Source: a virus
DNA: 38,947 nucleotides
Virus record (IMG/VR): IMGVR_UViG_3300034109_000201
Coordinates: 1-38,947 of that record
Strand: one strand, 5' to 3'
Part shown: positions 128 through 19,419 of the stretch, piece after piece
Layout: each line of letters starts with the position of its first letter
Position numbering within the stretch: the stretch's first letter is position 1
The notes under the pieces: generated by a model
Database searches by the model: none
Seen by the model: the letters and a program-made list of their open reading frames with translations, nothing else
Told to the model about the DNA's origin: nothing
Program-made: the position numbers and the translations under genes

Positions 128-1648
128 GCCGTTGGCGTCCCGGTCCACGACGCAGTTTGACATCGCCCACGCCAGCACCGGGTTGCCGTCATGCGAGAGT
201 TTCCTGCCCAGCACGGCTCGCTCCCACATCTGCGTAGGCGTGGCGAGGTTGAGGAACGACTGCGGGACGCGGACCACGTTGAGGCCCTTGCTCTCCAAGT
301 CGTTGGCGAGGTTCTGCGCGTTGTACGGGTCATATGCGATGAGCCTGACACGGTTGTCCTTCGCCAGCGCTTCGATCTGCTTCTGAATGTAGGCGTAGTC
401 CGTTGTGTCGCCTGCCGTCAGCGTCATCCAGCCTCGCCTCGCCCACTCTACATACGGCACGCCATCTCGTCGCGTGCGGTTAGCAGCCCCGACCTCGGGT
501 GCGTAGTTCCAGTTCCGAACGATGATTCGCTCACCGTCCAACCACACGGCAGCGATGCTGGACAGGTCGGTGGTCTGCGCAAGGTCCACGCCGAGGTAGC
601 ACGGCAAGCCGCGCAGCCGCTCGGCGTCAATCTCCTCCCGGCACGCCTCCCAATCGCTCATGCGAATCCACCTGTCGGACGCGGTGATGTGCTGGCACAG
701 GTAGTACGTCCTGAACGGCGACTCGTACGAAGGCTGGTCGTGCGCTCGCTTCGCCTCCTCGCGATACCACGGCAGTCGCACGGTGTGGCCGAGCGAAGGA
801 TTGGCCTTCTTCCACGTCGCCTCGGCATCCCATGGGTCTTCGACCTCGGCGTAGTGGAGGCACGGCAGGAACGCCGGATTGTCTACCGTTCCCTCGCACA
901 CCCGGAGCGCGTACTGGAACAGGTCGTGCTCCAGCGACTCGCGCAGCACTCCTGCCGTCGTGATGCTGACCATGAGCGGCTGGCGGCGCGCGCCCATTGA
1001 GGTCATCACGGCTTCCCACAGGTCACGGCGGTTCTCCATCGCGTGAATCTCGTCCGCGATGCAGGCGCTCGTATTGAGTCCGTGCGCTGCCGGAGCATCG
1101 GCGGACAGGATGGCGTACGAGCCGTACGACTGCGGAGCGATCAGGCGGTGCTGGTATGACTCGGTGCGCTGGCGCAGCAGCGGCTCAGCCTCGGCCATCC
1201 GGCTTGCGCGGTTCAGGCAGAGTTTCGCCTGCTTGCGGTCGCGTGCGATGCCGTAGACATTCGGCGTCGGCTCATCGTCGGCGAGCAGGTGGTAGAGCGC
1301 GAGCGCCGCCGCCAACTCTGTCTTGCCTGCCTTGCGCGGGATCAGGATGTGCGCCTGCCTGTACCTGCGCGAGCCGTCCGGCCTCAACCAGCCGTAGAGG
1401 TTGCCGACGAGCGCGCGCTGCCACGGGAGCAGGACGAATGGCTGTCCGGCCCACTCTCCTTCCGTGTAGCGGCACATCCCTTCGATGAAGTTGATGGCGT
1501 GCTTCGCTGCCTCCGGCTCCCATACGGAGTTGCCCTTCGTGGCAATCGCGTCATACCGAGGCAGCGTGTTGAATGCCTCGGCTGACCACTTACTTGCGCG
1601 TGAGCGCGGCTTTGCGGCTGAAGATGGTTTCGACTTGCTTCGTGTCAT
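1..1648 (-). CDS. terL: Terminase large subunit (5' part; continues across the junction)
   Basis: This is the ATPase and nuclease motor that packages phage DNA into proheads through the portal. The frame opens at ATG 1648, the first start after an in-frame TGA, and has no stop before base 1. Across the circular junction it continues for I-W-L and stops at 38810-38812, giving 552 residues. A variant Walker A (PRKAGKT, residues 104-110) and a Walker B ending in DE (199-200) mark the ATPase. Asp355 in YLGVDLAQTTD marks the start of the RNase H-like nuclease. The family is the HK97-type large terminase. The start overlaps the end of the small subunit gene by 59 bases and the end overlaps the portal start by 10 bases, so both junctions look translationally coupled. 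No clear Shine-Dalgarno precedes ATG 1648. It is not a broken gene; the truncation comes from where the contig was opened. Confidence 0.95.
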   Translation of the reverse strand, partial: MTRSKSKPSSAAKPRSRASKWSAEAFNTLPRYDAIATKGNSVWEPEAAKHAINFIEGMCRYTEGEWAGQPFVLLPWQRALVGNLYGWLRPDGSRRYRQAHILIPRKAGKTELAAALALYHLLADDEPTPNVYGIARDRKQAKLCLNRASRMAEAEPLLRQRTESYQHRLIAPQSYGSYAILSADAPAAHGLNTSACIADEIHAMENRRDLWEAVMTSMGARRQPLMVSITTAGVLRESLEHDLFQYALRVCEGTVDNPAFLPCLHYAEVEDPWDAEATWKKANPSLGHTVRLPWYREEAKRAHDQPSYESPFRTYYLCQHITASDRWIRMSDWEACREEIDAERLRGLPCYLGVDLAQTTDLSSIAAVWLDGERIIVRNWNYAPEVGAANRTRRDGVPYVEWARRGWMTLTAGDTTDYAYIQKQIEALAKDNRVRLIAYDPYNAQNLANDLESKGLNVVRVPQSFLNLATPTQMWERAVLGRKLSHDGNPVLAWAMSNCVVDRDANGNPRPSKKRSVERIDPVVASIIAIAASLHDEQQQRSVYEERGL

Positions 1649-2072
1649 GTTCTTGGGTCAGGCGCGTCCGCGCGCTTGGCGTGAGTCCGAACTCCTGCAT
1701 CATCCTCCGCACCATGAGGCCGTACTCCAACTGCATCGCGACGTACGGCGACCGCTTGAAGCCGATGATGGCCCCGGAGTCATCCTTCACGGGCAGCACG
1801 TCGCCGTAGCGGGCGAGTTGCTTCGTCGCGTGCTTCCATCGCGACAGGTACTCCGCCAAGTGCCCGAGCCCGATGGCGTCGGCGTCGGTCAGGACGCGCA
1901 TCGGTCCAATCGCCCGCACCAACTCGTCCCACGCCTCCCTCGCTGGCGGCTCCAGCCACTCCGGTGGCTGCGGCACGATGATCGGCAGGACGGGCTCGCC
2001 CTTCCGGGTGGCGGCGCGCCACGACCCGGCAAGGCGCATCGCGGCGGTGGGCTTGGGAGGTGGTCCGGGCAT
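1590..2072 (-). CDS. terS: Terminase small subunit, P27 family
   Basis: This 160-residue protein should recognise the packaging site and load the large terminase onto phage DNA. It matches the P27-type small terminase pattern: a PGPPPKPT N-terminus, a P-x-W-L central motif followed by a helical segment (AREAWDELVRAIGPMRVLTDAD, read in two halves), then a YL/YG-containing helix pair. It is directly upstream of terL and overlaps it. It is preceded by a 175-base G-rich gap that is the natural place for a packaging (cos or pac) site and a late promoter. Confidence 0.9.
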   Translation of the reverse strand: MPGPPPKPTAAMRLAGSWRAATRKGEPVLPIIVPQPPEWLEPPAREAWDELVRAIGPMRVLTDADAIGLGHLAEYLSRWKHATKQLARYGDVLPVKDDSGAIIGFKRSPYVAMQLEYGLMVRRMMQEFGLTPSARTRLTQEHDTKQVETIFSRKAALTRK

Positions 2073-2247: not shown

Positions 2248-2862
2248 TCACGCCACGCCCGCGAGCGCCATGAACTCGGCACGTGCGTCTGCGTTGCGCA
2301 TCGCACCGAGGAGGCACGAGGTCACCATGTCGGCATCGGGCTGGCGGACGCCACGACAACCCATGCAGGCATGGCTGGCTCGGGCAACGACTGCCGTGCC
2401 TCGTGCCGCGAGCGCGGCGTGCAGAGTGTGGGCGACCTGCTGCGTCAGTCGCTCCTGCATCGAAGGTCTACGGGCCCACGCCTCCACCATGCGAGGAATC
2501 TTGGAGAGTCCGACCACGCGACCGCTCGGCACGTAGCCCACGCTCATCTCGCCTACGAACGGGAGGAGATGGTGCTCGCAGAGCGAGACGAAGCGGATGC
2601 CTCGCACGAGAACCATCTCGTCACACGCCTCGTCAAAGACGGTCCCGAGCGCCTTCGCAGGATCCATGTTGCGTCCGCTGGTCATCTCGTCCAGCGCCTT
2701 CACGACGCGCCTTGGCGTGTCTACGAGACCGGGCCGCGTCGGGTCTTCGCCGATGCAGCGCAACAGGTAGGCGACACAGGCTTCCTGCAGTACGGGGTTC
2801 GGAGCGAACGGTGCCGTCAGCGCACGTTCCAAGCCTTGTGCATTTGAATACTCAGTCGCCAT
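2248..2862 (-). CDS. folE: GTP cyclohydrolase I
   Basis: It converts GTP to 7,8-dihydroneopterin triphosphate, the first step toward 7-deazaguanines. The 204-residue protein carries the zinc and catalytic signatures of the family: SLCEHHLLPFVG in the middle and HACMGCRGVR near the C-terminus. It also has the DPTRPGLVDTPRRV and GLSKIPRMVE motifs. ATG 2862 is chosen because AAGGA lies 9 bases upstream; a longer in-frame start would extend further into queE. It overlaps the end of queE by 46 bases and is the last gene of the queC-queD-queE-folE run. A phage copy of folE would raise precursor supply for DNA modification; a role in folate synthesis is less likely given the neighbours. Confidence 0.95.
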   Translation of the reverse strand: MATEYSNAQGLERALTAPFAPNPVLQEACVAYLLRCIGEDPTRPGLVDTPRRVVKALDEMTSGRNMDPAKALGTVFDEACDEMVLVRGIRFVSLCEHHLLPFVGEMSVGYVPSGRVVGLSKIPRMVEAWARRPSMQERLTQQVAHTLHAALAARGTAVVARASHACMGCRGVRQPDADMVTSCLLGAMRNADARAEFMALAGVA

Positions 2863-3452
2863 GACGGGTCTTCCTTGATGAGAGAGAGGCACCACTCAAG
2901 TGCCTTGCGGTCCAGCGTGAGGCCGTTGAATGCCGGGCTCACGAGTTGGTACGTCGCCGTGCACGCGGGCTTCGGTAGCGCCTGTCCGTACCCTCGCACG
3001 TACTTGACTTCGGTAGCGGTGGTCTGGCGCACGGCGTGCTCTGCCACCTTCGGGCTCACCGTGATCCAATCTAGGCCGAGGCCATCGACGTTGACGCTGC
3101 CGTTCGTCTCCATCGCGCACCTGAATCCGGCTTCGTGGAAGGCATCGACCAGCGCGCGGTCCACCTGCAGCCCGGGCTCGCCGCCCGTGAAGACGGCCCA
3201 CGCGCCGTGGCTCCGTAGGTACTCGTCTCCGAGCCCGCACGCCTCGCGCGCCGCAGCGAGCACTTCGGGCGCGGTCATCTTGCGTCCCGACATGAATTCC
3301 GTGTCGCAGTCGAATCCGCCCGGGCTCCTCGGCCCCGGCTCCATCGTGCAGCGCAGGTTGCAGCCCGTGAAGCGCACGAAGACGGACATCTCGCCAGCGC
3401 GCATCCCTTCGCCCTGTGGCGACCAGAACACCTCATTCACCGTGTAAGTCAT
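2817..3452 (-). CDS. queE: 7-carboxy-7-deazaguanine synthase, radical SAM
   Basis: It contracts the 6-carboxytetrahydropterin ring to 7-carboxy-7-deazaguanine (CDG) using S-adenosylmethionine and a 4Fe-4S cluster. The 211-residue protein has the expected SPQGEG start, VFVRFTGCNLRC, CDTEF, FTGGEP and METNGS motifs. The cluster cysteines are C31, C35 and C49, spaced CX3CX13C instead of the usual CX3CX2C. About eleven extra residues (EPGPRSPGGFD and flanks) sit between the second and third cysteine. ATG 3452 overlaps the queD stop as ATGA and has GGAG 8 bases upstream; a GTG at 3461 is the alternative. Downstream it overlaps folE. Confidence 0.93.
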   Translation of the reverse strand: MTYTVNEVFWSPQGEGMRAGEMSVFVRFTGCNLRCTMEPGPRSPGGFDCDTEFMSGRKMTAPEVLAAAREACGLGDEYLRSHGAWAVFTGGEPGLQVDRALVDAFHEAGFRCAMETNGSVNVDGLGLDWITVSPKVAEHAVRQTTATEVKYVRGYGQALPKPACTATYQLVSPAFNGLTLDRKALEWCLSLIKEDPSWRLSIQMHKAWNVR

Positions 3453-3859: not shown

Positions 3860-4518
3860 GGCTCGTACTCCGTTGGATCGACCACGCCAGCGAGCGAGAA
3901 CGCCTCGCGCCTCTCCACGCACGTGCCGCACTTGCCGCAGTGCTTCGACTTGCCTTCGTAGCACGAGTACGAGAGCGCCATCGGCGCGCCCTCGGCAACC
4001 CCAAGCGTCACGATGTCCGCTTTCGACGCGCCGACGAACGGCCTGTCAACGGTGAATCCTTCGGCATCCCAGTTTCCCTGCCTGACGGCGCGGACGAACG
4101 CCGTGAAGAACTCCTCGCGGCAGTCCGGGTACACGGCGTGGTCGCCAGCGTGCGCGGCAATCGCGACCGAGCGCGCGCCAATCGCGAGCGCGTGCCCCGC
4201 AGCCACGGCGAGCATCACCATGTTCCTGTTCGGCACGACAGTCGTTCGCATCGACTCCTCCTCGTAGTGCCCGTGCGGCACGGCCACGGTCACGTCCGTC
4301 TGCGAACTGTTCGGCAGCAACTCGCCGAAGTCGCGCAGGTCCACCTGCCGATGCCAGATACCGAGCGCTTCCGCCACTCGCTTCGCGGCAAGCAGTTCGA
4401 TGGCGTGGCGCTGACCGTAGTGGATCGTGAGCGCGTGAACCTCGTGCCGCTTGGCAAGCGCCGCCGCGAGCACCGTGGAGTCGAGCCCACCCGAGAGAAG
4501 TACGACCGTCCGAGTCAT
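3856..4518 (-). CDS. queC: 7-cyano-7-deazaguanine (preQ0) synthase
   Basis: It turns CDG into preQ0 with ammonia and ATP, passing through the amide ADG. The 220-residue protein has the PP-loop SGGLDST (residues 9-15). Its C-terminal zinc site is C186-x7-C194-x2-C197-x2-C200. The length is that of ordinary bacterial QueC, with no fused glutamine amidotransferase domain. The predicted end product of the operon is therefore preQ0, not the archaeosine-type base made by phages with Gat-QueC. It overlaps dpdA (ATGA at 4515-4518) and queD. Confidence 0.95.
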   Translation of the reverse strand: MTRTVVLLSGGLDSTVLAAALAKRHEVHALTIHYGQRHAIELLAAKRVAEALGIWHRQVDLRDFGELLPNSSQTDVTVAVPHGHYEEESMRTTVVPNRNMVMLAVAAGHALAIGARSVAIAAHAGDHAVYPDCREEFFTAFVRAVRQGNWDAEGFTVDRPFVGASKADIVTLGVAEGAPMALSYSCYEGKSKHCGKCGTCVERREAFSLAGVVDPTEYEP

Positions 4519-5309
4519 GCGTGCCTCCGCAAGTAGTCCTCAAAGTGCTGTCGGTCGCCGCTGCCTGAGAGCGCGTAGCGCAGACGGACGGTGCCGTATC
4601 CCTTCGCTGACAGCATCGAACCCCACTTTGCCTGAGCCTCGCTCTCCATGCGCCTGAAGTAGTCGATCTGCCCGCGTACGGCACTGTTGTACGCGCTGCG
4701 GTCTTTCGATGCACGCAGCCCGGAGTTGTTGAGCCCCTGCAGGTACTGGATGTTGCCGTACCGCGACAGCGCGAATATCCACGACGTGGCGTCCACGGAC
4801 GCCAGCGGGAGCCGAGACAGGAGCATCGCGTCACAGCAGCCGAAGCCGTGCGACCACACGGGCCACGCCCGGGCAAAGCACTCCTCAAGGAATGCCAGCC
4901 TGCGCTCCCGTGTCAACCGCACGCCGAAGCCGCCCTTTGCCCGGGCCACCATGCCTCCGAAGGCGCACTTGCCCGGCTTGGCCACGTCCTTCAGGTAGTG
5001 CCACGGCGATCCGTAGTGGAAGGTCGCGATGGCGTCGATGCCCTGCCGCCGCATCTCCTCCGTGTTTCGCGCGCTCGCTTCCGGGTCGCCGATGACATCC
5101 AGCGCGAAGATGCGCGAAGGAGGATGAGGACCGCGCAGCAAGGCGTGGCAGTCATCTATGTACTGCGCCAAGTCGATCCGCTTGCCGCTCGTGAGGGCGC
5201 TATACGCGCCGCTGTCCAGCACCCACTCGTCACAGACCGACAGTACGCCGGATCGCACCGCGCTCCGGACCGCCACGTAGGAGACGAGGAAGGACGGTCG
5301 CCACGTCAT
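4515..5309 (-). CDS. dpdA: DpdA-like DNA 7-deazaguanine transglycosylase
   Basis: This is a 264-residue member of the tRNA-guanine transglycosylase superfamily that in phages exchanges guanine in DNA for a 7-deazaguanine. Visible family features are VLDSGAYSAL (about 30-39), FALDVIGDPEAS, a histidine-containing HYGSPW loop, CAFGGMV, HGFGCCDA and SVDATSWIFALSRYG. The TGT-type aspartates lie in the first, second and last of these. It lacks the tRNA-binding additions of TGT, and its place directly upstream of queC-queD-queE-folE supports a DNA substrate. ATG 5309 overlaps the ParB-domain gene stop. Assignment to a particular phage DpdA subfamily is not possible by eye. Confidence 0.88.
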   Translation of the reverse strand: MTWRPSFLVSYVAVRSAVRSGVLSVCDEWVLDSGAYSALTSGKRIDLAQYIDDCHALLRGPHPPSRIFALDVIGDPEASARNTEEMRRQGIDAIATFHYGSPWHYLKDVAKPGKCAFGGMVARAKGGFGVRLTRERRLAFLEECFARAWPVWSHGFGCCDAMLLSRLPLASVDATSWIFALSRYGNIQYLQGLNNSGLRASKDRSAYNSAVRGQIDYFRRMESEAQAKWGSMLSAKGYGTVRLRYALSGSGDRQHFEDYLRRHA

Positions 5310-12155: not shown

Positions 12156-13066
12156 TCGGTCACCTCCTTCGGGGCCGTGACCGTCGTGCGGGAATACGAA
12201 GACCTGATGCTCCATCGCTGTGCCTCCTCCGGATTCGACTCCGCGAATCCCTTTGCATCGAATCGTGCCTGCTCCACCTGCGAGATGCGGATGCGGTAGC
12301 CGCCGCCCTCGCCCACCGTCGCCGAGCCGAGCGCGGTGATCAGTTCGGCGCGCTTCTTCGCGGCGTACGTCTCCGCTGCCTTCAACTGCTTCTGCGCCGT
12401 CGCGTCCTCCACGAACAGCGAGCGGTCGATCTGCGCCGCTGGCTGGTCGGCGTTTCGCTTCACGCGCTTCAGCGTCTCCAGCGACGGCGCGCCCGCCGGA
12501 GGCGTCCGGCGTTCGACGTGGCGCGACCAGAAGTCGCGCACGCGCTCCACGATGTACCCGGCGTACTCCTCGCAGAACGGGACTCGGTACATCTTCAGCC
12601 GCAGTCCGAAGTCGCCCTGCAGACAGGCCACGTGGGCGATGTCGCTGCTCGCGCAGAGCATCTGAAACATCACCTGCGCCTTGACCGCCTCGGGAACTTC
12701 GTCCGTTCCCTCCGCGCCCCAGCCATCGGTACGCCCGGTGGTCTTCGCTTCCACGATGGGCGAGCCGCGCTTCGCCGTACCGATCATGCCGTCCACGTTG
12801 GCGCGCATGAACAACTCGCAGCCGACGAACGTGCTCGTGGGCTTCACGACCTTCTCGCCCAGCCGCTCGGATGCCAACTGGAGCACGCCCGCCTCCAGCA
12901 CCGTGCCGATCCGCATGGCTTCGTTCTCGTCCGGGCCGTCTGCCTGACCCGTCTTGACGAGCCATAGGTCATACGGCGACTGCCACGGGTTCAGCCCGAG
13001 CAGCGTAGGGACATCGGACGAGCCGATGCCCCGGGTGCGATCCATCTCCTGCCGTTCCGTAATCAT
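12152..13066 (-). CDS. YqaJ-type recombination exonuclease
   Basis: This 304-residue nuclease should resect double-stranded ends to make single strands for the ERF protein. YqaJ/lambda-exonuclease-fold features are RGIGSSDVPTLLGLNPWQSP (residues 12-31) and the catalytic D92 (NVDGM) with E106-x-K108 (IVEAKTT). The central helix with QVMFQMLCA follows. The Ala/Glu-rich C-terminal third fits the family. The start ATG overlaps the HTH gene stop as ATGA, with a GAAAGG-rich region upstream. Confidence 0.9.
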   Translation of the reverse strand: MITERQEMDRTRGIGSSDVPTLLGLNPWQSPYDLWLVKTGQADGPDENEAMRIGTVLEAGVLQLASERLGEKVVKPTSTFVGCELFMRANVDGMIGTAKRGSPIVEAKTTGRTDGWGAEGTDEVPEAVKAQVMFQMLCASSDIAHVACLQGDFGLRLKMYRVPFCEEYAGYIVERVRDFWSRHVERRTPPAGAPSLETLKRVKRNADQPAAQIDRSLFVEDATAQKQLKAAETYAAKKRAELITALGSATVGEGGGYRIRISQVEQARFDAKGFAESNPEEAQRWSIRSSYSRTTVTAPKEVTE

Positions 13067-13272
13067 CGCTTTCCTTTCTGGGCTGGTCTTCCAGCCTCTC
13101 TGCGCTCAAACTTCTTGACCGACTCCTTCGGCCACAACAGAACTCTGCCGACCTTGACCGACTGAATCCCTCGGTGCAACGCGATCTGCCGCACGCGGCA
13201 CTGCGTTACTCCAATGGCCTCCGCAATCTCCCGCGTCGTGACGTAGTTCATGCGGCGGAAACATATCGCCAT
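13063..13272 (-). CDS. MerR/excisionase-like HTH protein
   Basis: A 69-residue DNA-binding protein. The winged HTH pattern is clear: TTREIAEAIGVTQCRVRQIALHRGI, read in two halves, then VGRVLLWPKESVKKFERRE. Small proteins of this type act as transcription regulators or recombination directionality factors; no integrase is present, so regulation is more likely. ATG 13272 has GGAG 7 bases upstream. Two copies of the palindrome GCCAA-NNN-TTGGC lie 18 and 42 bases upstream, which suggests autoregulation (inference). It is the first gene of the recombination and replication operon. Confidence 0.8.
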   Translation of the reverse strand: MAICFRRMNYVTTREIAEAIGVTQCRVRQIALHRGIQSVKVGRVLLWPKESVKKFERREAGRPAQKGKR

Positions 13273-13290
13273 GGGAAGTCTCCTTCAAAC

Positions 13291-13303
13291 GCCAACGGTT
13301 GGC
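13291..13303. promoter_or_regulatory. Palindromic site B in the HTH gene leader
   Basis: GCCAACGGTTGGC is a perfect palindrome with a 3-base centre and the same core as sites A, C and D. It lies 18 bases upstream of the HTH start codon. Its centre is 24 bases from that of site C, a spacing of a little over two helical turns. Likely an operator (inference). Confidence 0.6.
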
Positions 13304-13314
13304 ATCCTCGCCTC

Positions 13315-13327
13315 GCCAACCGTTGGC
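13315..13327. promoter_or_regulatory. Palindromic site C in the HTH gene leader
   Basis: GCCAACCGTTGGC is the partner of site B, extended by one matching base on each side (C...G). It is upstream of the HTH-exonuclease-ERF operon and downstream of any minus-strand promoter in 13330-13380. A protein bound at B and C together would block that promoter or its transcript (inference). Confidence 0.6.
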
Positions 13328-13382
13328 GGCGCGGGATACCGAAAGATTGCTAGACTGCCTGCGCTGACTCCTTTCTGCGCTC

Positions 13383-13415
13383 GGCCCCGCACGGCTTCTC
13401 GCGCCGTGCGGGGCC
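13383..13415 (-). other. Long GC stem-loop after the DUF932 gene
   Basis: GGCCCCGCACGGC and its exact complement form a 13-bp stem with a 7-base loop. It sits 13 bases past the DUF932-like gene stop. It lacks a following T tract on the minus strand, so it may protect the 3' end of the transcript or act with a factor, rather than as a classic intrinsic terminator. Confidence 0.6.
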
Positions 13416-13428
13416 TTCGCGCTTCAGG

Positions 13429-14310
13429 TCAGACCTCCACCACGGCGTCGGCATCAACGACCTCGCGCCCGGTCACGACCGAATCCAAGATGCCGTTCAG
13501 CCGCGAGTGACGGCGAGCGAGGTTCAACAGGCCGGGGCGCTCCTTCTCCACCTCCGTCACCGCCTGCTGGAGCCGGAAGACCGTGGGCCGCTGCCACGCT
13601 TCCCCGGCGTGCGCGTGCCCGCCCGGGCCGTCAGCCCGGTCGAACTCGCGGACGATGTGCGGCAGCGCCGTCGCCGTGATCGCCCCGGTACGGAGGCAGC
13701 GCATCAGCGTGTCGTTCAGGATCGTGCCCCGCCGGACGTTCGCCCGCGCGTCCGCTTCGGAGAAGTCGAATGCCGCATACGCCTCCTCGCGCTGCGCCAC
13801 GCCGCGCATCGCCATCCGCAGGTCGCCTAGCCGCGTCGTGATGATCTGCGGCAGGTCGCGCAGAGCCCAGCGGGTGTGCTTCCGGGCGAACTTGAACACC
13901 GCCTCCCCGCTGTGTAGCGCGAGGTTGTCGCAGACGAACACCCGGGTGCCGAGCACGCCTCCCGCCACCACGCTCTTGTCGTGGCCGTTGCGGATGCCGA
14001 AGACGAACTGCCGCCCACCGCCGATCTCGGTGTCGCCGCCGATGTCGTGCCCGACCTTCTCGCGGAGCCCGAGCAGCCCGAAGTAGCGCAGCCCGTCGCC
14101 GTACAAGGCGTGCACCTCCTCGGTGATGGCGAAGCCCATCAAGTCCAGCCCCTCGCGCACCTGCTCCACGAGGAAGTCGTGCGGCACCGGGCAGTGCGAG
14201 GCGGTCGGGTCCGGCGTCTTCGCCGCGCGCACCTCGTTCCAGTCCACGCGGTTGGCACCGCAGTGCAGGACGAGGCGGCTGTCACCAACGGTCATCGTGT
14301 TCCAAGTCAT
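13429..14310 (-). CDS. DUF932 phage/plasmid-like protein
   Basis: A 293-residue member of the DUF932 family found on phages and plasmids, biochemical role not known. Recognisable features are VPHDFLVEQVREGLDLMGF, FGLLGLRE, RNGHDKSVVAGGVLGTRVFVCDNLAL (read in two halves) and FKFARKHTRWALRDLP. These are the conserved core of such proteins. The C-terminal part contains WQRPTVFRLQQAVTEV, also typical. ATG 14310 is chosen because GGAG lies 6 bases upstream, directly after the three-hairpin leader (14322-14400). The upstream extension of the frame is not coding. It may act in DNA replication or recombination, judging only from its neighbours. Confidence 0.85.
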   Translation of the reverse strand: MTWNTMTVGDSRLVLHCGANRVDWNEVRAAKTPDPTASHCPVPHDFLVEQVREGLDLMGFAITEEVHALYGDGLRYFGLLGLREKVGHDIGGDTEIGGGRQFVFGIRNGHDKSVVAGGVLGTRVFVCDNLALHSGEAVFKFARKHTRWALRDLPQIITTRLGDLRMAMRGVAQREEAYAAFDFSEADARANVRRGTILNDTLMRCLRTGAITATALPHIVREFDRADGPGGHAHAGEAWQRPTVFRLQQAVTEVEKERPGLLNLARRHSRLNGILDSVVTGREVVDADAVVEV

Positions 14311-14321
14311 GCTGTCTCCTT

Positions 14322-14400
14322 GCCGCTTCTCGCGGCGTCTTGCGTAACTGCCTGCGGCACGCGCCGTAGGCGAATCGACCGCGCGCCGTTTCCGGCGCGC
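14322..14400 (-). ncRNA. Three-hairpin leader, copy 4 (before DUF932 gene)
   Basis: On the minus strand: hairpin I GCGCGCCG-GAAA-CGGCGCGC (14381-14400); hairpin II CCTACGGC-GCGT-GCCGCAGG (14351-14370); hairpin III GCCGC-GAGAA-GCGGC (14322-14336), abutting the Shine-Dalgarno AAGGAG. The same order and loops occur before three other early genes. Hairpin II keeps its pairing although arm bases differ (A-T in copies 1 and 2, G-C here). It has one A/C mismatch. Confidence 0.7.
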
Positions 14401-14407
14401 GGTCGCG

Positions 14408-14746
14408 TCATCCCTCCTTGCACAGATTGCGGGCGGCGCTGATCGCCCACTCGTACCCAAGCGCCTTCCGATCCGACGCCACGCGCTCGGTGTTGCGGAG
14501 GCATCGGAACTCCGCAGCCATCCTCGGCGCGTCCTCGCGCCACTCCGCCTCCCACGCGGAGAGCACGAGAGTCGCAACCGCCGCCAGCACCTCGGGCTCG
14601 TCCTGCACGTCTCGCAGCACGCGTCCCTCGGTCGCCAGCACGGCGTTCAGGATCAGCCCCTTCGCCGCGCCGTCCGGCCAGATGAACGTCGCGAAGACCG
14701 TCACCTGCATGACCTCAGAGAGCAGTTCCATCTCGTCATCGGCCAT
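14408..14746 (-). CDS. Early protein, unknown function
   Basis: A 112-residue, mostly helical acidic protein with a hydrophobic stretch (VMQVTVFATFIWPDGAAKG) and the segment LAAVATLVLSAWEAEWRE. ATG 14746 overlaps the preceding gene by 11 bases. No family is recognised. It is the last gene of a three-gene unit that begins with leader copy 3. Confidence 0.7.
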   Translation of the reverse strand: MADDEMELLSEVMQVTVFATFIWPDGAAKGLILNAVLATEGRVLRDVQDEPEVLAAVATLVLSAWEAEWREDAPRMAAEFRCLRNTERVASDRKALGYEWAISAARNLCKEG

Positions 14747-15053
14747 CGCTCTCCCTCCCGTCTTCGCGCTCGCGTGGCGTGACGAGCGCCACGTGGCGCT
14801 CCGCCCACGCCCTGCGTTCCTCGGCAGACAGAACGCTCCAGTGCATTGGCATCGGCATCCCGAGCGCCTGCGCGAAGCGGATCGGGTCAACCTCCGCCAC
14901 GTCCAGCATGGCGATGACCTGCGTAGCCATCACCATCCGGCGATTGATCGACTCCCGCACCGCAGGACTCGGGTGCGATGGGTCGGCCTTGGTCGCCTTC
15001 CGGAGATGCGCCATCAGCGCGTTCTTGGCGTAGTCGATATGCGCCTTACTCAT
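14736..15053 (-). CDS. Early protein, unknown function
   Basis: A 105-residue helical protein with a basic N-terminal part (KAHIDYAKNALMAHLRKATK), a Met-rich centre (GMPMPMHW) and a charged C-terminus. ATG 15053 overlaps the previous stop (ATGA) and has GGAGG 7 bases upstream. No family is recognised. Confidence 0.75.
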   Translation of the reverse strand: MSKAHIDYAKNALMAHLRKATKADPSHPSPAVRESINRRMVMATQVIAMLDVAEVDPIRFAQALGMPMPMHWSVLSAEERRAWAERHVALVTPREREDGRESDGR

Positions 15054-15526
15054 CGCTCGTCCTCCTCTCCAAGCGGGGTGCCGACCAGCGCCCCCTCATC
15101 CCGGGCATCGCTGACTGCGTAGGCCACGCGCTCCGCCGCAAACCATGCGAGGCGCGTCACCTCATGCGCGTCCATGCCGCCAGCGTCCAGCACCATCATG
15201 CGGGCCCCGGCGAGTTCCTCCTCCTGCGTGATGTTGGCGCGCCGCGACTGCTGCACAAGGCGAGCCGCGACATCCAACAGCGGCTCGTCGATTCCATCGG
15301 CGTAGTCTCGGACGAGCAGTCGCGCCTTCTCCAGCACGCCGGGTCGGGCGAGGAAGGCACGGCAGTCTTCGTCGTACACGAAGCCAGCGAGCCCTCCGCT
15401 CATGCCGAACTGCTCCACGTGCCTCATCGTCTCCGCCATCTGATCGTGCCCGTGCTGGATCAGGTGCTCCATCAGGTCCGGCAGCAGCGGGTGGGTCTTC
15501 GCATACACCGGGTTCTTCGTATCCAT
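15050..15526 (-). CDS. Early protein, unknown function
   Basis: A 158-residue protein. The part FGMSGGLAGFVYDEDCRAFL followed by a long acidic helix is reminiscent of small phage proteins of unknown function (DUF7222-like; weak, by eye). The C-terminus is acidic (GEEDER). ATG 15526 follows AGGAG directly after hairpin III of leader copy 3; the 32 codons upstream in the frame belong to the leader. It heads a three-gene unit ending at 14408. Confidence 0.75.
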   Translation of the reverse strand: MDTKNPVYAKTHPLLPDLMEHLIQHGHDQMAETMRHVEQFGMSGGLAGFVYDEDCRAFLARPGVLEKARLLVRDYADGIDEPLLDVAARLVQQSRRANITQEEELAGARMMVLDAGGMDAHEVTRLAWFAAERVAYAVSDARDEGALVGTPLGEEDER

Positions 15527-15537
15527 GGCAATCTCCT

Positions 15538-15590
15538 GCCGCCTATGGCGGCGTTCAAGGAAAGCCCCGGGCAGCACGCGCCGCCCGGGG
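15538..15590 (-). ncRNA. Three-hairpin leader, copy 3 (hairpin I absent)
   Basis: On the minus strand: a long hairpin II with arms CCCCGGGC and GCCCGGGG around GGC-GCGT-GCT (15565-15590), spacer CTTTCCTTGAAC, then hairpin III GCCGCC-ATA-GGCGGC (15538-15552) and the Shine-Dalgarno AGGAG. The GCGT loop and the spacer match the other copies while the stem bases have changed and still pair. The first hairpin is missing here. Confidence 0.65.
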
Positions 15591-15618
15591 CCATGTGGTC
15601 TTCTCGCACTCCGATCCG

Positions 15619-16380
15619 TCACGACTTCAGCGTGTCGAACTGCTCGCCGTCCGGCCCCTCGCTGGCGGGCACAAAGGCGTCCGGCTTGGCCGCGCGACCG
15701 AGCATCCGATCCGCGATGGCCTTCGCAACGGCGTCCACGAACGACTCCTGCTGCACGAGCGCCGTCACGAGCGCGGCCATCGTGTCCGGGCAGCGGACGC
15801 AGGTAGCAGCGACCTCTCGCCCGACCGTAGCGACCTCCTCGGCATCCATCGACCTGCCGATGGCGCTCGCCACCTCGTCCATGTCGATGTTGTTCGCCAC
15901 GGCGGTCGCCACCTCGTCCATGTCCATCGCCTCGGCGACCTCGCGCGCCCCGATGTCGGATGCCACCCGCTCGGCGATGGCGTCCGTATCGACCGTACCG
16001 AGCGCGTCCATCACGTGCGAGGTCAGGTCATCCATGTCAAACTCGTTCGCGATGTCGGTGGCGCTGATCTCGCTGGCGAGCGATGACAGGTCGATCTCGT
16101 TCGCGATGTCGGTCACGCTGATCTCGTTCGCGACAGCCGACACGTCCACGTGCTCCGCGATGTCGGACGGCTCAAACTCGGACGCCAGCCGGGAGTAGTC
16201 AAGGCGTCCCGCGACCTCGCGCGACAGTACGTCGGTCGGCACGTTCGGCGCGTAGCCCTTCAGCGCTTCCTGCTGCGCGGCGTGGAACTGCTCCACGGTC
16301 TTCACGATCTGCGCGGCAGACTCCTTCAGGTTGTTCGCGGTGGCGGTCAGGTCGGCAACGATGGGGGCAAACTGGTTCAT
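15619..16380 (-). CDS. Acidic protein with tandem 9-residue repeats
   Basis: A 253-residue protein of unknown function. Residues 61-123 are seven consecutive 9-residue units, such as DYSRLASEF, DVSAVANEI, SVTDIANEI, DLSSLASEI, SATDIANEF and DMDDLTSHV; 52-60 may be an eighth. A later set recurs every 13 residues (DMDEVATAV, DMDEVASAI, DAEEVATVG; 153-187). The pattern is acidic/polar, then Ile/Val/Leu-Ala, then Glu, then a hydrophobic residue. The N-terminal 40 residues look like an amphipathic helix. A CVRC pair is at 194-197. ATG 16380 lies just after leader copy 2; the Shine-Dalgarno is weak (AGAGAGAGAC). Confidence 0.8.
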   Translation of the reverse strand: MNQFAPIVADLTATANNLKESAAQIVKTVEQFHAAQQEALKGYAPNVPTDVLSREVAGRLDYSRLASEFEPSDIAEHVDVSAVANEISVTDIANEIDLSSLASEISATDIANEFDMDDLTSHVMDALGTVDTDAIAERVASDIGAREVAEAMDMDEVATAVANNIDMDEVASAIGRSMDAEEVATVGREVAATCVRCPDTMAALVTALVQQESFVDAVAKAIADRMLGRAAKPDAFVPASEGPDGEQFDTLKS

Positions 16381-16396
16381 GTCTCTGTCTCTCTCT

Positions 16397-16476
16397 GCCG
16401 CTCTCGGCGGCGTTCGTGGTAACGCCCGCAGCACGCGCTGCAGGTGAAGTCCTCCCGTCGCCTTTCGGCGGCGAGA
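16397..16476 (-). ncRNA. Three-hairpin leader, copy 2
   Basis: On the minus strand: hairpin I with a GAAA loop (16452-16476); hairpin II CCTGCAGC-GCGT-GCTGCGGG (16425-16444), identical to copy 1; spacer CGTTACCACGAAC; hairpin III GCCGC-CGAGA-GCGGC (16397-16411). It fills the gap between the 123-residue gene and the repeat-protein gene. Hairpin I sits 8 bases after a stop codon and could also end the upstream transcript. Confidence 0.7.
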
Positions 16477-16484
16477 GGATGGGG

Positions 16485-16856
16485 TCAGGCGGTCTTCGCC
16501 TCTTGCGTCCGGCGCGCGCGCTCGGCAGCGTTGTGGTCGCGCTCCATGTTGTCCATGACGCGCTTCAGCCATTGCTTGCGCGTCTTGCTCGCGACGTTCG
16601 TTGACAGCCCGACGAACGGCAGCAGGTCTTCTTCGGTCCACGGCGTTCCGTCTCGGTCCTTCTCCAGCACCGCTCTGCCGTGCGCGATCAGGAAGTTCAT
16701 GCGCCACACGAACTCGTCCAGCCGCACCTTCGTGATCTCGCCCATGTCCACCGCCATCGTTGTCCAGATCAGCCCCTCGCACATGGGCGTCATCCGACCT
16801 TCCTTCGTCCAGCAGGCAGACTCGTCGCAACGCTTCACGTTCCAGTTCAGGCTCAT
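16485..16856 (-). CDS. Early protein, unknown function
   Basis: A 123-residue protein with an N-terminal cysteine pair (RCDESACW), an aromatic-rich centre (LDEFVWRMNFLIAHGRAVL), the segment WTEEDLLPFVGLSTN and a strongly basic/charged C-terminal helix. ATG 16856 follows AAGGAG by 7 bases, immediately after hairpin III of leader copy 1. It is the first gene after the long non-coding stretch. No family is recognised. Confidence 0.78.
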   Translation of the reverse strand: MSLNWNVKRCDESACWTKEGRMTPMCEGLIWTTMAVDMGEITKVRLDEFVWRMNFLIAHGRAVLEKDRDGTPWTEEDLLPFVGLSTNVASKTRKQWLKRVMDNMERDHNAAERARRTQEAKTA

Positions 16857-16868
16857 CGCAATCTCCTT

Positions 16869-16946
16869 GCCGCACTCGGCGGCGTCTTGGTAAAGCCCGC
16901 AGCACGCGCTGCAGGCGAATGCCGCTCCGCCGTCTTTCGACGGCGG
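16869..16946 (-). ncRNA. Three-hairpin leader, copy 1
   Basis: On the minus strand: hairpin I CCGCCGTC-GAAA-GACGGCGG (16927-16946); hairpin II CCTGCAGC-GCGT-GCTGCGGG (16896-16915); spacer CTTTACCAAGAC; hairpin III GCCGC-CGAGT-GCGGC (16869-16883), ending one base before AAGGAG. This is the cleanest copy of the element and the reference for the other three. Confidence 0.7.
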
Positions 16947-17518
16947 GCGGCTGGTAGGTATCGGTAGGTCTTCAACTCCCGCGCCCCGGTGCGCGGTCCT
17001 CGTATGTTCGTCGCTGGCTGATCCCTGCGTGACTTCGTGGCGCGCGGCGGTGCTTGTAGGGCTCTCCGCTTACAGAGGGTCACATCCTCTCGCGCTGACT
17101 CGTCACGCGGTCTTCACCGCGCTGCTTGTTCGTCGGGCTCGCGCACCCTTCGGGTGGTGCGCTTCGGCTCTGCTGCTGACCGTATGTGTTCTACCGTTCG
17201 TGCGCCGTCTTGTAGGCCGTCGCGCTGTGCGTGCGAGGGTCGCATCCTCGCGCGTCATTCGCTCTGCTGAAGGTCGCCGTATCCGGTCCCGTTCGGTCCT
17301 CGGTCGCGGTGCAGGTCTTAGAGGATGCCTCTCGCTGCTTGCCGCGATCCGGTGGTGCGCTCGTCGCGCCGCCACTTCTGTCGCGCGCATCGCGGTGGTC
17401 CCGCGTGCGCTTGCTTCTTCGCCGTGCCCGACTTGTCAAAGACTCCAACCCGACAACATAACTATACCCCACGCGATAGGGTAATCCACCCCTGTTTCCT
17501 AAGCGCGGCGCGTGCGTT
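16947..17518. other. Gene-free stretch with small repeated hairpins
   Basis: Frames here are Arg/Ser-rich shadows on both strands with no credible start. Two stem-loops share the sequence GAGGGTC[G/A]CATCCTC (17233-17251 and 17074-17090) and a third is AGAGG-ATG-CCTCT (17320-17332). A further GCGCAC...GTGCGC stem lies near 17140-17161. The part 17433-17500 is clearly A+T-richer than the rest. The region separates the end of the tail operon from the first early gene, so it should hold a terminator, an early promoter and possibly an RNA gene or origin; none is proven. Confidence 0.5.
17455..17500 (-). promoter_or_regulatory. Candidate early promoter region
   Basis: On the minus strand the A+T-rich island contains TATAGT (17466-17461), a good -10 hexamer, and TACCC...GGGTA arms just upstream. 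The -35 position (about TGGATT) is poor, so this is a weak prediction based mainly on composition and on its position upstream of the leader-1 gene. Confidence 0.3.
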
Positions 17519-17875
17519 CTACGGCGTCGGCGACCACTTGCCCTTCGGGCAGGTCGCGGCGGGCATCCGGCCCTTGACCGTGAGTTCGGCGCGCGGGTGC
17601 TTCGCGCATCCGCACGCCTTGCAGAATCCGATCTGCGGATCAGGAGCGGCGTCAAGGTGTTCGCACTGGCGGCAGACCGCCACGCGCGCTTCGTAGTCGG
17701 CGTCAGCCAGCGGGCCGCGCGTCAGCAGACTTGCTTCGGCAGTCAGCCAGCCAGCGGCCTTGCGGTACAGCGAGCCACCGGGCCGCTCGGTGAACGACAC
17801 GACCGTAGCCGTGTGCGCCTGTTCGTCCAAGTCCAGCACCCAATCGCCAGCCGCCGTAGTGACCGAGACTCTCAT
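17519..17875 (-). CDS. Zinc-ribbon protein at the end of the tail operon
   Basis: A 118-residue protein. The N-terminal half is β-rich (VSVTTAAGDWVLDLDEQAHTATVV read in halves). The C-terminal half is a cysteine-rich ribbon: CRQC, about 14 residues, CKACGC, then CPKGKW. This CxxC...CxxCGC...CPxxKW pattern is common in phage proteins of unknown role encoded near tail genes. ATG 17875 overlaps the previous gene stop as ATGA. The upstream extension of the frame is not coding. Confidence 0.78.
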   Translation of the reverse strand: MRVSVTTAAGDWVLDLDEQAHTATVVSFTERPGGSLYRKAAGWLTAEASLLTRGPLADADYEARVAVCRQCEHLDAAPDPQIGFCKACGCAKHPRAELTVKGRMPAATCPKGKWSPTP

Positions 17876-19419
17876 GCGATCCGCTCTACCTTCCGGTGTT
17901 CGTAGATGCGCGAGCGGTTGGTACGCCGCAGTGCGTATGACCAGCATTCGTATCCGTACTCGGTACAGCAGTCGCTGAAGTTCGCGCCGTAGTCCCCGAG
18001 CGTGATCGTGTTGTCGTTCGCCGTGCAGTCCAGCGGCACCGACTCCGACAACGGCCCGACGCGGAACGTCAAGCCGGAAGACAACAAGACCGGAGAGCAC
18101 GATGACGATGAACAATCGCCGTCTGGCACCTGTGTCGGCGTCCATACGCGGTCGCAGCAAAAGCCCGTGTAGGTCCAATCGGGAGAGTTCCATGGCAACC
18201 AGCCGACGCTGTTCCCATACCCGCCGCAGGGCGGCGGAGGCGATATCGCCAACTGAGTCTGGCACGGCACCGACGAAGGGCTGTAGTAGTTGGCTTCGCC
18301 CGCGAAGCCCACGCCTTGACACATCTCCTCGTAGAGCGCACGCGAACAGGCCCCGCGTCCGTACGCGAACTCTTGATTGATGTCCGACCATAGCACTGCG
18401 CCGCCGCAGTACGTGTTCCAGCCGATGCGATTGAAGGCGGTGCTGCATTCCCCGGCTTGCGGGTCAGGCAAGTCCACTTGGCTCGTCAAGTGAAACAGTC
18501 TGATGTTGGCCGGGGTGCCCGTCGATGGCGGAATGAGTCCGCTCGTGAGCGGGTCGGGCGATTGGTCGGCGAAGTACGTCTCGGCACTCAGCCCACGCGA
18601 GAACACATTGGGCGTCGCGGTCGTGTTCCATGTCATCGTCACGGGCCCGGCTGTCTGCGCGTTTGCTGCCGTGAGCACCTCCTCCAGCGTCTTGCCGACA
18701 AGGCTGTACGACCACAGCACGGAGCCTCCGAAAGCCTTGATGCGGAACGTGCGCGCCACTACGTCCCACGAGCGCGCCGGACTGCTGCCTACGCGCCGAA
18801 TCCGAAACACCTCCGGCCCATTCGTGTAGAAGGGCCAATTAGTCCAGCGCGCGCTGAACAGGTATCGGCACAGCGGGTCTGACTGTTCCGGGAAGGTGAC
18901 CGTGTAGCAGCACGTACCTTCTGCTGGCACTCCTCCGTAGCACGGACGTGAGTTCGTGATCTCCGGCATGGACAGCGAGGCTTCGTACACGTCCGTCCTG
19001 TCGCCTCCGGGCGCGCTGAAGTCCGTCAGTCTGCCGTCAGGCGTGTACCACCGCAGCGACCTGAAGAACAGGGTGCTGACCGTGAACGGCAACTCCAGCA
19101 CCAGCGGCGCTGCCATGTCCCATGCCCACGATTGGTCATATACGACATCCGTGTATCCGCACGCTGGTCCGGCTGGCGTGAACTCGTACGACAACTCGCA
19201 ACTGCCGAACTGCGGGACAGTGTCGCCGAGCGTTGGCGGGTCAATCGGCCCCGGCGTGCAGCCCGATGCCGTCACGCACTCGCCGCCGTGCACGACCTTC
19301 CCGACAAAGCGCTCGGCCTGTCGATACCAATATGTCAGCCGTACTGAACTGCCGCCCTTCGGGCGCGGGCACGTCTTCCCGGTGTCGCTGCAGCAGCACT
19401 CAGCGCGCGTCAGGTTCAT
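17872..19419 (-). CDS. Cysteine-rich structural protein, possible tail tip
   Basis: A 515-residue protein of unknown family with about 26 cysteines, several as adjacent pairs or triplets (ECCCSD, GTCCYT, FCCDR, SDCCTE). It is rich in Trp, Tyr, Pro and Ser. No signal peptide is evident. Its position at the end of the tail module suggests a tail-tip or receptor-binding protein. Such a cysteine load is unusual for a protein folded in the reducing cytoplasm and may point to metal binding. ATG 19419 has GGAG 8 bases upstream and overlaps the lipoprotein gene by 20 bases; an earlier start at 19485 would overlap more. Confidence 0.7.
   Translation of the reverse strand: MNLTRAECCCSDTGKTCPRPKGGSSVRLTYWYRQAERFVGKVVHGGECVTASGCTPGPIDPPTLGDTVPQFGSCELSYEFTPAGPACGYTDVVYDQSWAWDMAAPLVLELPFTVSTLFFRSLRWYTPDGRLTDFSAPGGDRTDVYEASLSMPEITNSRPCYGGVPAEGTCCYTVTFPEQSDPLCRYLFSARWTNWPFYTNGPEVFRIRRVGSSPARSWDVVARTFRIKAFGGSVLWSYSLVGKTLEEVLTAANAQTAGPVTMTWNTTATPNVFSRGLSAETYFADQSPDPLTSGLIPPSTGTPANIRLFHLTSQVDLPDPQAGECSTAFNRIGWNTYCGGAVLWSDINQEFAYGRGACSRALYEEMCQGVGFAGEANYYSPSSVPCQTQLAISPPPPCGGYGNSVGWLPWNSPDWTYTGFCCDRVWTPTQVPDGDCSSSSCSPVLLSSGLTFRVGPLSESVPLDCTANDNTITLGDYGANFSDCCTEYGYECWSYALRRTNRSRIYEHRKVERIA

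Follow-up and report, generated by a model that had tools for sequence, protein, structure and literature searches.

A repeated three-hairpin RNA leader precedes early genes of a phage and is retained in distant lineages

Four early genes of an uncultured phage, in an IMG/VR virus record of 38,947 bases taken whole (the window), are each preceded by a copy of the same structured RNA leader, an ordered set of hairpins that abuts the Shine-Dalgarno sequence. The stems covary, and leaders of the same architecture recur in distant phage lineages. We put the chances at about even that the leader serves as intercistronic punctuation, insulating and perhaps cutting a single early transcript and so giving every gene a 5' leader of its own.

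Results

Leader copies in the window

An earlier note on this DNA had described an ordered set of hairpins upstream of the genes starting at 16856, 16380, 15526 and 14310. The set is present before all four, on the minus strand:

16854..16953, minus strand: leader copy A (hairpin I 16921-16951; hairpin II 16895-16916; spacer 16884-16894; hairpin III 16869-16883; Shine-Dalgarno and ATG 16854-16868)
16378..16481, minus strand: leader copy B (hairpin I 16450-16479; hairpin II 16425-16444; hairpin III 16397-16411; AGAGAG Shine-Dalgarno and ATG 16378-16396)
15524..15611, minus strand: leader copy C (hairpin I absent; hairpin II 15564-15592; hairpin III 15538-15552; Shine-Dalgarno and ATG 15524-15537)
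14308..14407, minus strand: leader copy D (hairpin I 14376-14405; hairpin II 14350-14371; hairpin III 14322-14336; Shine-Dalgarno and ATG 14308-14321)

Hairpin I has a GAAA loop in copies A, B and D and is absent before 15526, as had been claimed. (The orthologue of copy C in the relative G007, unlike copy C itself, does have hairpin I.) The GCGT loop of hairpin II was found in all four copies, and hairpin III consists in each of GCCGC, five nucleotides and GCGGC, ending 0–1 nt before the Shine-Dalgarno sequence. Compared to dinucleotide shuffles, the leaders gave folding z-scores of −3.9 (A), −2.9 (B), −2.5 (C) and −3.9 (D). In the predicted minimum-energy fold of copy B, an alternative hairpin is favored over hairpin III, and the Shine-Dalgarno sequence of copy C is mostly paired in its predicted fold. 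Predicted Shine-Dalgarno accessibility was 0.49 for the leader genes versus 0.39 for other genes, a difference that was not significant (p = 0.17).

Covariation

The covariance-model search that had been suggested was carried out with a model, R1, of 103 positions, built from 18 copies, which match it by construction; its E-values are rough. At E ≤ 0.1, R1 finds exactly the four copies in the record and no others; beyond these there are only weak shadows on the reverse strand. The copies in relatives all lie in the early block: four in G001 (near-identical), five in G007, four in G004, and three plus one cut in G003.

When compensatory changes were counted, nine of the 12 pairs in hairpin I and 10 of the 11 in hairpin II covaried (19 pairs). 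Across 19 distinct rows, 95.6% of the cells pair (93–97% for hairpins I and II), compared to 32–50% when the partners were shifted by 1–3 columns, and 69 cells changed on both sides, compared to 19 in shuffles. The alignment was fitted to the structure, so that these counts lean towards it; the controls are nonetheless far off. The claim that structure rather than sequence is kept holds for hairpins I and II, but not for hairpin III, which is invariant in sequence within group 1 (5 of 5 pairs never vary). (Groups, here and below, are labels based on gene A identity and leader type, not phylogeny, and the contigs are partly fragments.) Compensation in hairpin III appears only once other lineages are added to the comparison, with GCCGC/GCGGC, GCGGC/GCCGC and GCCCC/GGGGC as variants.

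On the gene strand, G-U pairs outnumber A-C pairs (25 versus 14, most of the A-C cells coming from a single position, where other copies have U-G), which favors an RNA read in the direction of the genes. Relatives that kept the genes and lost the pairing would have counted against an RNA element; in the relatives, the pairing is retained. An RNA element of the early genes is thus well supported by covariation, by the excess of G-U over A-C, by fixed orientation beside the Shine-Dalgarno sequence and by retention in distant lineages.

Genes and modular use in the early block

The leader genes and their neighbors are arranged as follows:

16485..16856, minus strand: gene A, 123 aa (MSLNWN...), family F1, behind leader A
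15619..16380, minus strand: gene B, 253 aa, family F2, behind leader B
15050..15526, minus strand: gene C, 158 aa, family F6, behind leader C; matches DUF7222 weakly, below cut-off
14736-15053 and 14408-14746: two overlapping genes after gene C, without leaders
13429..14310, minus strand: gene D, 293 aa, family F4, behind leader D

Protein matches were to phages of many hosts, all of them distant. Early-block genes with a leader are separated from the preceding gene by 92–120 nt, and the whole gap is taken up by the leader. Most early genes without a leader overlap the preceding gene by 4–11 nt; one sits 31 nt away, and one gap in G007 was not settled by the simple gene caller. The stop codon of the upstream gene is followed within a few nucleotides by hairpin I, after 5 nt in copy B and after 2 nt in copy D. 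Since it fills the gap and is found before at least seven unrelated gene families, whose order varies among relatives, the leader behaves as a module.

The varying gene order, and the finding that two leader copies within one genome are 94% alike, could also point to an element acting at the level of DNA, either as protein-binding palindromes or as linkers promoting recombination and gene-cassette shuffling, with RNA pairing being secondary. However, the leader always has a single orientation, flush with the Shine-Dalgarno sequence; G-U pairs are tolerated and exceed A-C; and the hairpin sequences differ widely among copies. We regard this as the least probable of the readings considered.

Leaders in other phage lineages

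Gene A homologues turned up at 50 viral loci. In group 2 (L291, L292, L293, L298 and L299), gene A identity is 35–38% and there are 5–6 leaders in each, with the hairpins in the same order as in group 1 but with different sequences. L321 (group 3) has at least three leaders. R1, the group-1 model, which was built without these lineages, gave 14 matches in 392 kb, of which 13 end exactly at the start codons of leader genes. (A match in L287 was judged to be due to chance.) With a pattern that combined hairpin I with the opening bases of hairpin II, 15 further sites were read out. Most of their contigs were new to the analysis, but L337 and L347 are part of the L321 contig. A script found hairpin III, a Shine-Dalgarno sequence and ATG downstream of 12 of the 15; the other three have the same downstream order by inspection, two with GCCGG/CCGGC and one with a GTG start.

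The loops behave differently among the groups. In group 1 they are nearly fixed (GAAA or GACA in hairpin I; GCGU in hairpin II of all intact copies but one) while the stems vary, as would be expected if a phage or host RNA-binding protein recognized the leader, mainly through its GCGU and GAAA loops, and switched the early genes jointly. A single leader per cistron would also suit such a translational regulon, and a protein-bound operator is the main rival to the punctuation reading. In groups 2 and 3, however, the stems of hairpin I are more stable and its loops are hypervariable (20 distinct among 25), the loops of hairpin II vary as well, and the early genes yielded no candidate for such a protein. 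On balance, we find joint switching by such a protein unlikely. Hypervariable loops on a stable hairpin I stem in group 2 would fit recognition of double strand rather than loop, in favor of the punctuation reading. When partners for the loops were sought by eye, no conserved partner was found, either for kissing between GCGU loops or for pairing between leader loops and those of the upstream RNA described below.

In L313–L315, gene A has its own sigma-70-type promoter (TTGACA-17-TACAAT), directly followed by a hairpin-III-like stem (GCCCC-ACA-GGGGC) and then the Shine-Dalgarno sequence, with hairpins I and II missing. Their absence where a promoter supplies the 5' end fits a role for these hairpins in making or marking ends inside a long transcript.

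Hairpin III plus Shine-Dalgarno on its own was seen in many unrelated phage contigs, some of which match Pseudomonas phages, so this portion may be a leader motif of more general use.

Hammerhead ribozymes in group 5

The records of group 5 (L294, L303, L306, L307, L309, L311 and L312) contain 19 matches to the Rfam Hammerhead_II family, with 2–4 per record in most records. Eight score above the curated threshold, and the matches lie on the strand that codes for the early genes. No match to Hammerhead_II (RF02276) was found in the records of groups 1, 2 and 3. All 19 have TAG or TAA within a few nucleotides of the 5' end and a Shine-Dalgarno sequence within a few nucleotides of the 3' end, with a start codon ≈8–20 nt downstream (the reading frames having been judged only by eye); in L306, such a match lies directly before the homologue of gene A. 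The layout of stop, hairpin, cleavage site, hairpin and Shine-Dalgarno sequence resembles that of the three-hairpin leader.

It was proposed by Perreault et al. (2011; PMC3088659) that long transcripts are divided into gene-length mRNAs by the tandem hammerheads of phages and prophages. These, too, are repeated RNA elements between phage genes, and those of group 5 occupy slots equivalent to the leader's. The three-hairpin leader, in contrast, lacks a hammerhead core and matches nothing in Rfam, and its cleavage is putative. That related phages have self-cleaving hammerheads in equivalent slots lends indirect support to the leader as a processing element. It might also suggest that the three hairpins form a new class of catalytic RNA cutting each junction, as might the fixed unpaired stretches in group 1. 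However, groups 1 and 2 share no unpaired core, and no Rfam ribozyme family is matched, making a new self-cleaving class very improbable.

The RNA upstream of the early genes

The gap before leader A, ≈560–660 nt long, holds a conserved structured RNA and promoter- and boxA-like sequences:

16963..17449, minus strand: structured untranslated RNA, ≈480 nt, at the start of the early block; conserved, with a long-range closing helix
17434..17442, minus strand: boxA-like TCTTTGACA, position conserved in groups 1, 2, 3 and 5
17457..17467, minus strand: promoter-like −10 region GTATAGTTATG; no good −35 in the record, and no call here in the consensus scan

In four phages, 38 of 125 pairs of the upstream RNA were changed on both sides, compared to 2–6 when slid, and 95.5% of cells pair, the structure having been derived from the same four sequences that were used for these counts. 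At the corresponding place, group-2 phages carry an RNA of ≈400 nt that differs in sequence and has GUUCGAUC/GAUCGAAC as its closing helix. No match to the upstream RNAs was found in Rfam at thresholds. (L282, found with the upstream-RNA pattern, seems to be a chance match in a coding region.) The upstream RNAs of groups 1 and 2 begin just past a promoter-like sequence, accompanied by TCTTTGACA, the boxA core, and the one in the window would head the early transcript. The case for a boxA-like element rests on conservation, because the window sequence has two mismatches to the 11-mer GYTCTTTRANA, a match that is not above chance in the window alone; the same core stands close to where the early block begins in groups 1, 2, 3 and 5, and the exact GYTCTTTGACA occurs in groups 3 and 5. 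A boxA-like sequence after a promoter, followed by a long structured RNA with a long-range helix, resembles boxA antitermination and the leader-trailer helices of rRNA (PMC5725501, PMC10250234), with the difference that the phage RNA is not rRNA and that a boxA function is suggested here by sequence and position only.

The proximity of the boxA-like motif to the start of the early block, the strong G+C hairpins and the short U-rich stretch after hairpin II could be taken to mean that RNA polymerase is the target of the leaders, which would then be attenuators, pause sites or put- or nut-like antiterminators. However, no leader was called as an intrinsic terminator (three were called elsewhere, versus 2.4 expected), and antitermination needs no copy per gene flush with the Shine-Dalgarno sequence and leaves hairpin III unexplained. 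HK022 put, an antiterminator RNA of two hairpins, acts in cis close to early promoters to suppress termination; the per-gene position of the leader differs from that of put as generally known. We consider an action on RNA polymerase quite unlikely.

Comparison with databases and known elements

In keeping with the earlier note, which knew of no family of this form, a search of the whole window against Rfam 15 at curated thresholds gave no match. A permissive Rfam search of 14200-17600 gave two sub-threshold matches, both on the opposite strand. GenBank phages gave no match to the region by DNA similarity, and single leaders gave chance-level pieces. The hairpin II–III pattern had at least 118 matches in bacterial genomes; among the matches listed, a structural filter left one doubtful site, apparently inside coding sequence. 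A promoter reading was also considered, and no sigma-70-type promoter was called in 12800-18000.

SAS is a fixed 13-bp sequence, and ESAS contains SigA-like promoters (PMC3203893; PMC11373665). The elements resemble the leader as repeats before a subset of non-structural phage genes that adjoin the Shine-Dalgarno sequence and have inverted repeats upstream. They differ in that the leader has neither the 13-bp SAS nor a SigA-like promoter, and no covariation is described for SAS/ESAS in the passages considered here. The SAS 13-mer GGGATAGGAGCCC, sought beside start codons, had one two-mismatch match in the window, which lay elsewhere and was at chance level. RiboJ-type insulators (PMC6206723) are engineered and self-cleaving, whereas the phage leader is natural and would be cleaved only putatively.

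Discussion

The leader would work like phage elements that divide polycistronic mRNAs, and no catalogued RNA family matched it. The RNase III sites of phage T7 are hairpins between early cistrons that divide one polycistronic transcript. They share with the leader their location between early cistrons, but are single hairpins with internal loops rather than a three-hairpin module flush with the Shine-Dalgarno sequence, and a role of RNase III is putative here.

We propose that transcription begins upstream of the ≈480-nt untranslated RNA and continues through the early genes, perhaps aided by antitermination at the boxA-like signal. At non-overlapping junctions, hairpin I would cap the 3' end of the upstream cistron a few nucleotides past its stop codon, possibly stabilizing it, and hairpin II, the spacer and hairpin III would make up a fixed 5' leader of the next cistron. 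Lying flush with the Shine-Dalgarno sequence, hairpin III would keep upstream RNA from disturbing ribosome loading. The junction would probably also be cut, the likeliest place being near the linker that joins hairpins I and II. As the earlier note suggested, the leader would in this way coordinate translation or transcript processing.

This punctuation model is favored by the gap-filling leader, compared to the overlap of most other early genes, by the hairpin covariation and modular use, and by the same architecture in groups 2 and 3 and the hammerheads in equivalent slots of group 5. Several points count against it. Predicted Shine-Dalgarno accessibility was not significantly raised; copy C, where it is low, also has no hairpin I; RNase III would be expected to need longer hairpins; and the fixed group-1 loops suggest recognition rather than passive structure.

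More tentatively, the early operon may be laid out like an rRNA operon, with a promoter, a boxA, a large helix-closed RNA, and cistrons parted by new RNA processing leaders that hammerheads replace in a sister lineage; we think this possible, but probably not the case.

The leaders would constitute a new, repeatedly used family of structured phage RNA leaders with strong covariation. The slot before the homologues of one gene is occupied, depending on lineage, by three hairpins, by a self-cleaving ribozyme, or by a promoter and one hairpin, and this natural comparison set makes the question of why phages punctuate their early operons with RNA structures directly testable. The leaders would also offer natural counterparts of engineered ribosome-binding-site insulators.

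Variants of the leader and neighboring features

In four group-2 contigs (L291, L292, L298 and L299; groups reflect gene A identity and leader type), nearly all copies of hairpin I within one genome have distinct loops on a largely constant stem, the opposite of group 1, which includes the window. L016, L022 and L027, phages from one metagenome, are matched weakly by R1, the covariance model of the group-1 leader; in them, a hairpin with a GCGT loop comes directly after promoter-like sequences and is followed in turn by hairpin III and the Shine-Dalgarno.

The product of gene B is internally repetitive, with tandem repeats of about 39–54 nt. The gap preceding the small HTH-like gene, next after the leader-bearing genes, lacks the three-hairpin leader; it contains another two strong hairpins. 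Of these, CGCCAACGGTTGGC with GCCAACCGTTGGCG lies immediately 5' of the Shine-Dalgarno.

Window 15619-16380 (-), gene B
Window 13273-13428 (-), gap

A hairpin flush with the Shine-Dalgarno, GCCGCCNAGNGCGGCAAGGA, recurs in many unrelated phage contigs (L046-L121, e.g., L108, L117 and L059), frequently as CACCTTCTGCCGCCCAGCGCGGCAAGGACACC ahead of ATG. The GenBank matches are Pseudomonas phages.

Leaders of group 5

In group-5 phages, junctions of early genes hold 19 matches to the Hammerhead_II ribozyme, each flanked 5' by the upstream stop codon and 3' by a Shine-Dalgarno. A second repeated leader (14 copies, some of them listed here) runs from CAGAC through a covarying hairpin and conserved GCGAGGATG to the Shine-Dalgarno.

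Hammerhead_II:
L303 5374-7060
L307 2862-5062
L306 4926-6161
L311 1239-2844
L294, L309, L312

Second leader:
L294 1914, 2191, 3220
L303 4436, 4941, 5970
L311 445, 789, 2544

A large RNA upstream of the early genes

The early block of groups 1 and 2 is headed by a large, structured untranslated RNA:

Window 16963-17449 (-)
L011 about 4150-4640
L026 about 2760-3230
L034 about 1280-1800 (-)
L299 about 4105-4500

It had no match in Rfam, and covariation was strong in group 1. This RNA may be a bigger novelty than the three-hairpin leader.
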